From an uncultured Bacteroidota bacterium (GTDB lineage Bacteria; Bacteroidota; Bacteroidia; JABEUT01), in NCBI GenBank assembly GCA_903916255.1, contig CAIWVW010000055.1:1-57747 (forward strand): a DNA stretch of 57,747 bases. The letters are read 5' to 3'. The notes beneath the pieces are model-generated. The model had not been told where the DNA came from. It saw only the letters and a program-made list of their open reading frames with translations, and did no database searches. A program made the translations under genes and the position numbers. This document shows positions 19,613 to 54,059 of this stretch, one piece after another. Position 1 is the first letter of the stretch. Each line of letters opens with the position of its first letter.

Positions 19613-19642
19613 AAAGTTTTTAAAGTTCGTAAAGTTCAAAGT
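19613..19642 (-). repeat. Tandem ~10-bp ACTTTnnGAA repeats in the lpdA leader
   Basis: On the minus strand four ACTTT units recur at 8-11 bp, and the last ACTTT ends 10 bp before the lpdA ATG. A variant -7 box TATTTTCG lies just upstream (19652-19659), so the repeats should be transcribed. Related leaders precede topoisomerase IV B and lspA. Confidence 0.7.
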
Positions 19643-19686
19643 ATGAGTTTGCGAAAATAGTAAAAAAATAAGCTATCTAATCGTGT

Positions 19687-19716
19687 GTTCATCATTGCGA
19701 GGCTCTGCGAAGCAAT
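19687..19716. repeat. Dispersed repeat (TCATTGCGAGG family), copy 1
   Basis: The text around TCATTGCGAGGCTCTGCGAA is nearly identical to 42706-42735 (two mismatches over the core 24 bp, plus a shared GTGTTC upstream). It lies between lpdA and mltG. Confidence 0.65.
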
Positions 19717-19791
19717 CTCTGGTATCATATAAAAAATCCAAGCCATTACCTGAGCCCAATCTTATAACTTTGCCGAATTCTAAAAAGAGAG

Positions 19792-20811
19792 ATGCGCAAG
19801 ATAATATTGGGGATAGTAATTTTAATGGCTATAAGCTTGGTTGTTACCTATCGGTTGTTTTTTGGCCCAAGCGTTAAATTAGATAAGAAGTCTGAGTTAA
19901 TTTATATCCGCACGGGTTGGAATTTTAACCAGGTTCAGCAAATGCTGAAAGAGAAGCACATTATTAACAGTTCGCTCGGGTTTCGGTTGTTTGCTAAATA
20001 TAAAAAGTTTGACGGTGCCGTAATTCCCGGGCGTTATCGCATAATGAACGGTATGAGCAATGCCGAGCTTATCAACATGCTGATAAAAGGTAAGCAGGAG
20101 CCGGAGAGTATAAGTCTGCATAACATTATTTTTAAAGGCGATTTGGCAGGAATTGTAGGCTCTAAAATGGAATCGGATTCCGCGGCTGTGATGACAGCCC
20201 TTAACAACGGCCCGTTTTTAAAACAGTTCGGTGTTACCCCGGCGAATGTATTGGCTATTTTCATACCCGGTACCTATAAAATGTATTGGACCGATTCTCC
20301 GGAAGTATTTATTGCTCAAATGGATTCCAATTATAAAAAATTCTGGACTCCCGAAAGACGAACTAAAGCTTCCAAGGCCGGACTCAGCCCTATGCAGGTA
20401 ACTATATTGGCATCGATAGTTCAGGCCGAACAATGCCTCCACATGGATGAAAAGCCAATTATTGCCGGTTTGTATATAAACCGACTGAAACGCGGAATGC
20501 CGCTGCAAAGCGACCCTACGTTGGTTTATGCGCGGGGCGATTTCTCTATTGCCCGTGTTAGGAATGGAGATAAGGAACAGGATTCTCCCTATAACACCTA
20601 TAAACACACAGGCTTGCCTCCCGGCCCCATCAATATGCCGGAACCTTCATCGATTGATGCGGTGCTGGATTATAATGTTAATAATTACCTCTACATGTGC
20701 GCCGAGGCTGATGGCACAGGCAGGCATCACTTTAGCACCAACTTAGATGAACAGAATAAATATGCGGCTAAATACCGGGAGTATCTTAACAAACACCAAA
20801 TAGAGCGTTAG
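19792..20811 (+). CDS. mltG: Endolytic murein transglycosylase MltG
   Basis: 339 residues. Single N-terminal membrane segment (ILGIVILMAISLVVTYRLFF), a LysM-like region (RTGWNFNQVQQMLKEKHII), then the YceG catalytic domain: IPGTYKMYW near residue 165, ASIVQAEQ (catalytic Glu, ~residue 208), then PLQSDPTLVYARGDF and PYNTYKHTGLPPGPI, ending in the usual YLYMCAEADGTGRHHF segment. It cuts nascent peptidoglycan glycan strands at the outer face of the inner membrane. Length is normal. The 3' end faces a T9SS gene across a perfect inverted repeat. Confidence 0.95.
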   Translation: MRKIILGIVILMAISLVVTYRLFFGPSVKLDKKSELIYIRTGWNFNQVQQMLKEKHIINSSLGFRLFAKYKKFDGAVIPGRYRIMNGMSNAELINMLIKGKQEPESISLHNIIFKGDLAGIVGSKMESDSAAVMTALNNGPFLKQFGVTPANVLAIFIPGTYKMYWTDSPEVFIAQMDSNYKKFWTPERRTKASKAGLSPMQVTILASIVQAEQCLHMDEKPIIAGLYINRLKRGMPLQSDPTLVYARGDFSIARVRNGDKEQDSPYNTYKHTGLPPGPINMPEPSSIDAVLDYNVNNYLYMCAEADGTGRHHFSTNLDEQNKYAAKYREYLNKHQIER

Positions 20812-20828
20812 TGAATTTATTTGTATTT

Positions 20829-20896
20829 CGCAAAGACGCTAAGTCGCAAAGCCTTTAAAACAATTCCAAACTTCTTTGCGACTTAGCGTCTTTGCG
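20829..20896. repeat. Perfect 23-bp inverted repeat between convergent genes
   Basis: CGCAAAGACGCTAAGTCGCA at 20829 (23 bp to 20851) has an exact reverse complement at 20874-20896, with a 22-bp loop. It sits between the stops of mltG and a T9SS gene and could stop transcription from both sides. Sequences of this type recur as intergenic repeats in Bacteroidota. Confidence 0.85.
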
Positions 20897-20905
20897 AGAG
20901 ATTAC

Positions 20906-21802
20906 CTATTTCTGAATTATCAACTTGCCTTCTCCTATTAATTGTCCTGAATTAGAAACTATCCTGTAAAAATAAACACCTGCGGGTTGGTTAGAAAAGT
21001 CAAGCTCATAATTACGCTGAACTTGATTCAACATATCAATTGTGACTTTTTCACCCAATACATTATAAATTTCGACTTCGGGCACAAAATTTTGTGCCCC
21101 CACAAGTGCAATTGTAAATAAGCCTTTCGACGGGTTGGGATAAACTTCAATTAATGGTGCAACCTGCTTAACCGGGTCAACTCCAGCAATTACCACTTCG
21201 TTGCCGCAAATAGTATCATGTTTTTTAGAATAGATGAGGGAATAATAATCCGAATATGGAGTATCGTTAATGAAATCAAAAGCGTACATAATGTAATAAG
21301 GCCCTCCGCAGCCTTCCACAAGCCATGATTGCGTTGAATATGTATTCATAGACTCTTGCGTACTATCTATACAAACCTGTGAGGGGCTTTCTTCCCAAAC
21401 TTTACGGTCGCAGTATGGGTAAGTTGAGTCATAATATATCGTATCGCTCAAAGGGCAAGGGCTGTTACCTGTGTCCTGGGAAGCCCTCGAAGATAAATGT
21501 GTGTAGTAAACAGTCGAAACATGCGAACTGAATGAACCAACACATGGTGGCGGGCAAGCAGGCGGAGTATAATATACTACGCTGTCTTTATAAAAAACTG
21601 TATCGGAAAGTGAAGAGTACCATTCACCTAAAATGATGGTTAATCCATAGGTAGGAGGGCCGCCCTCGCTACTGCCTGATTGGGTTTCAAAAACATCTCC
21701 CACATTAAAATTATAAACTTGTCCGTTAGTAAGGTAGTTTTGGGAAAAAGAAGTAAATACCCCACAACCCGCAAAAATCATACTGAAAAGTAGTTTTTTC
21801 AT
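20906..21802 (-). CDS. T9SS-sorted secreted protein of unknown function
   Basis: 298 residues: signal peptide MKKLLFSMIFAGCGVFTSFSQ, a ~190-residue Cys/Tyr/Pro-rich middle with several spaced cysteines (PPACPPPCVG, DSTYPYCDRK, GCGGPYYIMYAFDFIND) and a type A T9SS sorting domain from about residue 220 (EVYPNPSKGLFTIAL, GVYFYRIV, ending GKLIIQK). The middle part is not recognised; the cysteines suggest disulfides in a secreted product. Its sorting domain is close to that of the SprB-repeat protein near 42.8 kb. A minus-strand -7 box, TATATTTG, lies at 21851-21858. Confidence 0.78.
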   Translation of the reverse strand: MKKLLFSMIFAGCGVFTSFSQNYLTNGQVYNFNVGDVFETQSGSSEGGPPTYGLTIILGEWYSSLSDTVFYKDSVVYYTPPACPPPCVGSFSSHVSTVYYTHLSSRASQDTGNSPCPLSDTIYYDSTYPYCDRKVWEESPSQVCIDSTQESMNTYSTQSWLVEGCGGPYYIMYAFDFINDTPYSDYYSLIYSKKHDTICGNEVVIAGVDPVKQVAPLIEVYPNPSKGLFTIALVGAQNFVPEVEIYNVLGEKVTIDMLNQVQRNYELDFSNQPAGVYFYRIVSNSGQLIGEGKLIIQK

Positions 21803-48596: not shown

Positions 48597-48628
48597 TAAA
48601 AGTTCATAAAGTTTATAAAGTTGAAAGT
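48597..48628 (-). repeat. Tandem ~10-bp ACTTTATGAA repeats in the topoisomerase leader
   Basis: On the minus strand four ACTTT units recur about every 8-10 bp, ending ACTTT-TAACTGACTT-ATG. The run lies between the -7 box and the ATG, so it should be transcribed. It matches the lpdA and lspA leaders. Confidence 0.72.
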
Positions 48629-48657
48629 AAAACCACCTTTCAGCCTAATAAGAAGCG

Positions 48658-48665
48658 CAAAATTA
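48658..48665 (-). promoter_or_regulatory. -7 box for topoisomerase IV B
   Basis: Minus-strand TAATTTTG, exact TAnnTTTG, 69 bp before the ATG and just upstream of the tandem repeats. Confidence 0.6.
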
Positions 48666-52594: not shown

Positions 52595-53353
52595 ATGAAA
52601 AAGAAACCTGTTAAAAAGACCAATAAGGTAAAAGTTAGTTCTTCAAAAAAGGCTGCTCCCAAAAAGGTTGTTAAAAAAAGCAAGCCTGTTGCAAAAAAGA
52701 ACGCTCCCGTCAAAAAGAAAATCGAAAAAAAAGTGGTAAAGTCAAAGCAAAAGCCTGAGCCTAAGAAAGTAATTAAAAAAGCAATAAAGAAACCGGAAGT
52801 GAAAAAAGCAAAACCAGAAGTGAAGAAAGCCCCAGTTGTTGCCAGAAAAGAAGTTAAAATATTTAAGCCTGTTGCAAAACCGGAAGTTAAGCCAACACCA
52901 GTAGTTTTGAAACCAGAGCCTAAAAAAGTAGTTGTTGAAAAGCCTCTAGCTGTAAAAGCTGCTCCTGTGGATGAAAAACAACGTTATTCGGAAAAGGAAT
53001 TAGCTGAATTTAAAACCCTTATTGTTGATAAACTGGACCAGGCCAAGAAAGACTACGAATTGCTGAAGAATACCCTTTGCCATACGGATGACCATGGTAC
53101 TGACGATACATCACCTACATTCAAAGCTTTGGAAGACGGTTCTGATGTATTAACCCGTGAAGAAACGGCACAACTTGCTCTTCGTCAGGAAAAGTTTATC
53201 CAAAACCTGCAGAACGCACTTATCCGCATTCAAAATAAAACCTATGGAATTTGCAGGGTAACCGGTAAATTAATCCCGAAGGAAAGGCTGAGGAGAGTAC
53301 CTCATGCTACCCTTAGCATCGATGCGAAAAAAGAACAACAATTCAATCAATAG
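52595..53353 (+). CDS. TraR/DksA-family protein with histone-like lysine-rich tail
   Basis: 252 residues. Residues ~1-125 are almost only Lys, Pro, Val and Ala (KKPVKKTNKVKVSSSKKAAPKK-type blocks), resembling histone H1 or AlgP tails. Residues ~128-252 are the DksA coiled coil and C-terminal domain: LREE/ALRQEKFIQNLQNALIRI, then YGICRVTGKLIPKERLRRVPHAT. The canonical CxxC pairs are missing (only one Cys), as in many Bacteroidota homologs. Family members bind RNA polymerase; the tail may add nucleic-acid binding. It lies between ileS and lspA, a conserved neighbourhood in the phylum. Confidence 0.87.
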   Translation: MKKKPVKKTNKVKVSSSKKAAPKKVVKKSKPVAKKNAPVKKKIEKKVVKSKQKPEPKKVIKKAIKKPEVKKAKPEVKKAPVVARKEVKIFKPVAKPEVKPTPVVLKPEPKKVVVEKPLAVKAAPVDEKQRYSEKELAEFKTLIVDKLDQAKKDYELLKNTLCHTDDHGTDDTSPTFKALEDGSDVLTREETAQLALRQEKFIQNLQNALIRIQNKTYGICRVTGKLIPKERLRRVPHATLSIDAKKEQQFNQ

Positions 53354-53354
53354 A

Positions 53355-53391
53355 GTTTATAAAGGGAAAAGTTATAAAGTTTATAAAGTAA
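53355..53391 (+). repeat. Inverted arm of the lspA-leader repeat
   Basis: TTTATAAAGT units on the plus strand can pair, with G-T pairs, to the tandem ACTTTATGAA units at 53404-53437. Confidence 0.55.
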
Positions 53392-53403
53392 AAATGCAAA
53401 ACT

Positions 53404-53437
53404 CACTTTATGAACTTTATGAACTTTATGAACTTTA
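53404..53437 (+). repeat. Tandem 10-bp ACTTTATGAA repeats in the lspA leader
   Basis: ACTTTATGAA is repeated three times in a row and followed by a fourth ACTTT, then AACCTGTTTTA and the lspA ATG. Same design as the lpdA and topoisomerase leaders. Confidence 0.78.
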
Positions 53438-53447
53438 ACCTGTTTTA

Positions 53448-54059
53448 ATGAAAAGGCCTTTGCTTATAATCTTTTTGGTGCTGCTGTTTGACCAGGCACT
53501 GAAAATTTATATTAAAACCCACTTTATTTTAGGGGAAGAACATAGGATTGCATCCTGGTTTATTATTCATTTTACCGAGAATAACGGAATGGCTTTCGGG
53601 ATGACATTCGGCGGCCAATACGGCAAAATTTTTCTGAGCGTTTTCCGTATTGCTGCCGTTTCCCTCATTGGCTATTACTTATGGACCTTAGTAAAGCGTA
53701 ATGCACCTAATGGCTTAATTGCAAGTTTTGCCCTCATTTTTGCAGGGGCATTAGGCAATATTTTGGACAGCACATTTTATGGGGTGTTATTTAGCGACAG
53801 CGGATACGAATTGGCTAAATTTATGCCTAAAGAAGGGGGCTATGCAGGCTTTTTGCACGGTAAGGTAGTCGATATGTTTTATTTCCCTTTAATAGAAGGG
53901 CATTTTCCTTCCTGGTTCCCTTTTTGGGGCAATGAAGAATTCCTGTTTTTCCGCCCGGTATTTAATGTATCCGATTCCGCTATTACAGTAGGTGTGATTT
54001 TTATTCTCCTGTTCCAGAAGAAATTCTATCCTAAAGCAGAAACAATAGATAATAAATAA
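53448..54059 (+). CDS. lspA: Lipoprotein signal peptidase (SPase II)
   Basis: 203 residues, four membrane segments. Conserved: DQALKIYIKTH at the N-terminus (DQxxK), TENNGMAFGM (~45), ALGNILDS with one catalytic Asp (~105), and GKVVDMFYFPL with the other (~140). It is longer than E. coli LspA (164) because of an insertion between the catalytic segments, as in other Bacteroidota. It removes signal peptides of lipoproteins such as the ones predicted at 6866 and 54611. It ends in a strong terminator and follows the DksA-like gene across the tandem repeat. Confidence 0.94.
   Translation: MKRPLLIIFLVLLFDQALKIYIKTHFILGEEHRIASWFIIHFTENNGMAFGMTFGGQYGKIFLSVFRIAAVSLIGYYLWTLVKRNAPNGLIASFALIFAGALGNILDSTFYGVLFSDSGYELAKFMPKEGGYAGFLHGKVVDMFYFPLIEGHFPSWFPFWGNEEFLFFRPVFNVSDSAITVGVIFILLFQKKFYPKAETIDNK

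Follow-up and report, generated by a model that had tools for sequence, protein, structure and literature searches.

Tandem ACTTT repeats before lspA, parE and lpdA in a Bacteroidota genome as probable gene-less derivatives of intervening-sequence-like hairpin elements

The tandem repeats that stand before lspA, the topoisomerase IV subunit B gene (parE) and lpdA in the DNA analysed here (the window, 57,747 nt, contig C55 of a 3.74-Mb Bacteroidota genome in 149 contigs, G000) belong to a dispersed ACTTTAYRA family restricted to one genus, and are not a leader of these three genes. We consider it likely, with a probability of roughly 0.7, that the three leaders are derivatives of hairpin elements resembling the intervening sequences (IVSs) of 23S rRNA, placed at gene boundaries and without the gene for the 23S rRNA intervening-sequence protein (IVP or S23; PF05635, a four-helix bundle). 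A sequence-only reading of the window had proposed a common leader of ~10-bp repeats, with a conserved CTG and a fixed distance to the start codon, that could influence translation, and had named a simple dispersed repeat as the alternative. The pattern is explicable without any effect on translation, and the alternative came nearer the truth in that the repeat is dispersed, although it is neither simple nor randomly placed.

The three leaders lie where the sequence-only reading had put them, at 53405-53447 (+) for lspA, 48599-48628 (-) for parE and 19613-19642 (-) for lpdA, with 11, 10 and 10 nt, respectively, from the end of the last ACTTT to the ATG. The ~10-bp period was an error: the unit is 9 bp (ACTTTATGA or ACTTTATAA, consensus ACTTTAYRA with variable seventh and eighth bases), and the ACTTTATGAA given earlier had one base counted twice. 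Also overlooked was an inverted left arm at lspA, which begins at the stop codon (TAG, 53351-53353) that ends the preceding gene and makes this leader a strong hairpin spanning 53351-53437; the two arms fold at -29.3 kcal/mol (z -5.3), where shuffled sequences give -14.3 +/- 2.85. The parE and lpdA leaders have one arm each, and no stable fold was found for them. The features are:

53351..53389, + strand: left (inverted) arm of the lspA element, seen in the sequence and pairing with the right arm in the fold
53390..53404, + strand: loop of the lspA hairpin in the fold, 15 nt, gene-free
53405..53437, + strand: right arm of the lspA element, three copies of ACTTTATGA plus ACTTT, pointing forward to the lspA start
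53448..54059, + strand: lspA ORF, start ATG
48599..48628, - strand: parE leader, single-arm array, shared among congeners by G002 only
48657..48665, - strand: parE -7-like box TAATTTTGC, with a similar box upstream of orthologues
19613..19642, - strand: lpdA leader, single-arm array, shared among congeners by G002 only
19651..19659, - strand: lpdA -7-like box TATTTTCGC, with a similar box upstream of orthologues

The -7 box that had been noted in two cases is present, 77 nt upstream of the parE ATG and 57 nt upstream of the lpdA ATG, and since it lies upstream of both arrays and recurs at orthologues, these arrays are probably transcribed. No -7-like box was found within 120 nt of lspA, which is probably an operon member. 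The window holds two other repeats. A different hairpin (TCGCAAAGACGCTAAGTCGCAAAG and its complement around a 22-nt loop) occupies a convergent gap at 20797-20920 and may be a further family of similar kind, or an ordinary terminator or REP; a CATTGCGAGGCTCTGCGAAGCAATCTCT repeat lies upstream of lpdA at 19695-19725, and like repeats form hairpins elsewhere in G000.

A two-unit probe (ACTTTATRAACTTTATRAAC, up to 2 mismatches) gave 151 matches in G000 and its reversed control 0, so the ACTTT repeats are not due to chance. Among ten congeners the family is clear in six (15-49 matches each, with 49 in G002, the sister species of G000), two have 1-2 matches, in one of them no higher than its own control, and G006 (99% complete) and G010 (84%) have none. 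By IleS (76%), the closest named record is a Bacteroidetes MAG contig, JABDHI010000036.1. Across 49 genomes from other families, probe matches stayed at control level, and a search of plasmids for DNA related to the lspA hairpin found none. A known RNA family was rejected as a candidate, there being no Rfam match above the gathering score at the five loci checked.

Placement relative to genes was analysed in ~1.15 Mb (31%) of G000, mostly contigs known to hold matches, so that the density there is not a genome-wide one; genes were called with a simple codon-usage caller of our own, and distances are therefore approximate. This sample holds 45 clusters, 17 of them two-armed with the left arm inverted and the right arm forward. 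Thirty-seven clusters could be assigned to a gap between called genes; they lie on average 16 bp from the nearest ORF end, versus 42 bp for random placement simulated within the same gaps, and in gaps where other sequence amounts to 150 bp or more, 62% of arrays are within 15 bp of an ORF end versus 12% expected. Arrays that adjoin a start codon point forward in 24 of 26 cases, and arrays are equally tight behind stop codons and at convergent gene ends. Random placement relative to starts, which the sequence-only reading had named as the outcome that would speak against it, was not what we saw, none of 20000 simulations reaching the observed closeness; the non-random leader location it had suspected is borne out by the ORF-end bias, by the forward orientation and, at parE and lpdA, by the promoter-like box. 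Purifying selection by itself could be the source of part of the ORF-end bias; that few arrays lie mid-gap in long gaps argues against its being the whole source. The other two elements of the proposed leader fail genome-wide: CTG is present in 9 of the 26 start-adjoining arrays, and the start lies anywhere from 0 to 18 nt beyond the last A[AC]CT. Some arrays apparently provide the start codon (TTTATGAAC) or stop codon (TTCATAA) themselves. In gene-less ACTTT hairpins, arms paired in cis match no better than arms paired in trans, and there is no G-U bias; selection for pairing was rejected on these grounds.

Comparison with related species shows that array placement, non-random as it is, is not conserved. 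The lspA element is found in G000 only and is absent from ten lspA genes of eight congeners, nine of which start with GTG or TTG, where G000 lspA has the element followed by ATG. (G008 and G004 each have a second lspA gene, L213 and L214, in a different neighbourhood.) Of 6 congeners, 5 lack the parE array, and of 7, 6 lack the lpdA array; in both cases G002 is the one that has it. In both sister species the parE and lpdA arrays sit between the -7-like box and the ATG, and the other congeners mostly have a shorter leader from box to ATG. Related genomes thus largely lack the repeats at these genes, which had also been named as evidence against a leader, with G002 at parE and lpdA as the exception. 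Of 19 clusters alignable with G002, including those at parE and lspA, ~10 are arrayed in both species, with differing unit numbers at the common sites, and in the remaining half or so no array can be recognised in G002. The nuoE/nuoF junction is occupied by a gene-less ACTTT array in G000 (L363, C74:35103-35149) and by a full IVP gene with ATTAGGA-type arms in G002 (L364, contig C62), and in six congeners it is tight and empty.

The connection with IVP genes appears on contig C13 of G000, where an insert of ~400 bp that G002 lacks encloses an ORF between two terminal ACTTT arms (C13:15785-16210). The ORF matches PF05635 (E 2e-33) and TIGR02436, and Xanthomonas XCC0516 (2gsc) is the only solved structure that it matches in sequence. 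Inspection by eye showed no target-site duplication, the mark of a MITE, at lspA or C13, where G002 is too diverged to offer a clean empty site. PF05635 is common in Bacteroidia, with matches in 120 of 149 genomes and up to 23 in one, and we collected 135 IVP loci across the class, 37 of them usable in the genus. Inverted arms with a score of at least 14 surround the IVP gene in 86 of the 135 loci and 30 of the 37 in the genus, versus 0 of 252 other small G000 genes, and 124 of the 135 flank pairs are at or above the 95th percentile of flanks paired across loci. Many different short tandem units make up the arms. In 123 of 131 cases the IVP gene is codirectional with its upstream neighbour; its median distances are ~50 bp from the upstream stop and ~40 bp to the following start. 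The copies examined adjoin protein genes or tRNA genes; two IVP genes (L317, L319) stand directly 3' of apparent tRNA 3' ends.

Arm type goes with IVP type. ACTTT-type arms occur at 10 of 11 loci of the FED..WQ subfamily of IVP versus 30 of 125 for the rest (p 1.7e-5, a guide only, as the pattern was set after the data had been seen and related loci are not independent), and across families arm similarity tracks IVP similarity with r 0.15, against a permutation maximum of 0.10. The lspA element of the window has the arm type of the IVP-carrying copy in G000, and its stem likewise consists of tandem units at ORF boundaries. Within the genus, ACTTTAYRA-armed IVP genes number only two, L313 and the truncated L327, and none of eight of the nine G002 IVP matches has such arms, despite the 49 repeat matches in that genome.

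Certain junctions carry IVP genes recurrently. The sufB/sufC junction holds one at 9 loci in 9 Bacteroidia families, with differing arm sequences (L348, L387, L389, L408, L412, L416, L422, L426 and L429), a fadJ/fadA junction at 12 loci in 10 families, and a thiolase/acyl-CoA dehydrogenase junction at 9 loci in 8 families, the last two being named from the flanking proteins. At all three the arms match in cis, although they often differ from one family to another; the observed mean is reached by 0, 0 and 4 of 20000 permutations, respectively. IVP similarity between the two fatty-acid junctions (0.50) is as high as within them (0.50), which suggests repeated insertion rather than a single ancient insertion per site.

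We propose that the repeats are copies of a dispersed hairpin element, with a stem of tandem 9-bp ACTTTAYRA units, lying between a stop and the next start or between a promoter and a start, with an arm ending a few bases before the ATG. The lspA leader has a two-arm, gene-less copy, and the parE and lpdA leaders have single arms; longer relatives have an IVP gene in the loop, codirectional with the upstream host gene. The repeat family, its placement, the differences between species, the association of arms with IVP genes and the agreement of arm type with IVP subfamily are direct observations. We infer that gene-less copies descend from IVP-bearing elements and that IVP recognises its own arm type and takes part in making or keeping copies, and, by analogy with rRNA IVSs, the hairpins may be cut by RNase III. 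In 23S rRNA, for example of Coxiella burnetii, the S23 ORF is regarded as part of a selfish stem-loop within the rRNA, and RNase III cutting of such IVSs is known (PMC4990558); rRNA insertions of CPR bacteria are also reported to contain IVP ORFs (PMC11270868). The likeness to the elements described here lies in a stem-loop, considered selfish, that sits inside a host transcript and whose terminal inverted repeats enclose a PF05635/S23 ORF. The elements here differ in standing at protein-gene junctions, not in 23S rRNA, and in having stems of tandem short units, and the window copies are ORF-less (the lspA loop being 15 nt), although the C13 relative does carry an IVP ORF. The stem of an IVS is found in the lspA hairpin (z -5.3), but not in the single arms at parE and lpdA.

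It seems improbable that the ACTTT units act in translation or after transcription by binding a ribosomal or regulatory protein, the phylum being sparing with Shine-Dalgarno sequences. The nearness of the arrays to starts, their 24:2 forward orientation, their location after a promoter-like box in the parE and lpdA leaders and the similar placement of TAACTGA repeats reported in MacGregor 2015 (PMC4679880) would suit such a role, but the arrays are as tight after stops and at convergent gene ends, CTG and spacing vary, and the forward orientation at starts is explained by the element's arms pointing outward. The array is also missing from most orthologues, on which ground a shared regulatory leader was rejected; with this and the variable CTG and spacing, the conserved leader with a translational role put forward in the sequence-only reading is left unsupported. 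We likewise doubt that the repeats are a dispersed palindromic family unrelated to IVP, into which the C13 gene merely hitched. Gene-less copies do far outnumber ACTTT-armed IVP genes, and ACTTT-armed IVP was not found among eight of the nine G002 matches, whereas inverted flanking arms are the rule for IVP genes class-wide and ACTTT-type arms track one IVP subfamily in several bacterial families.

Local replication slippage, yielding variable-number tandem repeats of the phase-variation type, would account for the unit numbers that differ between G000 and G002, but is very unlikely: a single sequence family with inverted arms occurs at many places, the lspA, nuoE/nuoF and C13 junctions of other species have no recognisable array, and the association with IVP would be left unexplained. 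REP/REPIN sequences with RAYT (PMC3116915) resemble the present repeats in being dispersed intergenic hairpins, some of them gene-less, and Y1 (TnpA/RAYT) transposase genes are present in 10 of 11 genomes of the genus. Mobilisation of such palindromes by Y1 is nevertheless hardly credible here and was rejected, as none of 30 Y1 loci has an ACTTT array in flanks of up to 1.5 kb and the ACTTT stems are tandem AT-rich 9-mers, not REP-like.

Our preferred reading, that the leaders are IVP-less derivatives of IVS-like elements, has a bearing on repeats described elsewhere. MacGregor 2015 (PMC4679880) reports TAACTGA direct repeats in Beggiatoaceae, Cyanobacteria and Bacteroidetes, favours translational regulation, leaves their origin open and also suggests a repeat-binding protein as a possible mobile element. 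As here, the units are tandem, forward before starts and reversed after stops, patchy in distribution and without a link to gene function; they differ in being a 7-bp heptamer of other sequence, against 9-bp ACTTTAYRA, and IVP is not mentioned in the accessible text. One IVP element of G002 (L307) has TAACTGA-type arms. Descriptions of cyanobacterial STRR (short tandemly repeated repetitive) sequences present them as bare repeats; on Nostocales plasmids, four-helix-bundle genes are flanked by short tandem units of similar kind.

A wider reading, which we offer as tentative, is that IVP/S23 proteins might be repeat-specific factors of widespread mobile hairpin elements in Bacteroidota and Cyanobacteriota, each recognising its own stem units and placing copies at ORF junctions, perhaps via RNA; gene-less offspring would include ACTTTAYRA, TAACTGA and perhaps STRR repeats, and the 23S rRNA IVS would be one special site. 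To our knowledge, the function of PF05635 proteins is not known, although their presence in 23S rRNA intervening sequences was noticed long ago, nor is the origin of short tandem repeats before start codons. If these proteins and repeats belong together, two long-unexplained features of bacterial genomes are joined and both become testable; the link would also caution against taking leader repeats as regulatory sites, and would account for small ORFs recurring within core operons such as suf. No paper tying such repeats to IVP, or naming IVP as a repeat-binding protein, turned up in a literature search with thin coverage of subscription journals; the link would be new, though its novelty is not certain.

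Of 13 IVP loci on cyanobacterial plasmids, 7 have arms that match in cis at the 95th percentile. In Anabaena sp. 90 and Pseudanabaena galeata, a four-helix-bundle gene separates cas6 from cas4 (L453, L462); it is flanked by inverted arms in Anabaena, and on both sides by long tandem repeats, not inverted, in Pseudanabaena. At two loci on Nostoc plasmids, L452 and L455, the IVP gene is downstream of a hypothetical protein gene (WP_104899637.1) in one strain and upstream of it in the other.
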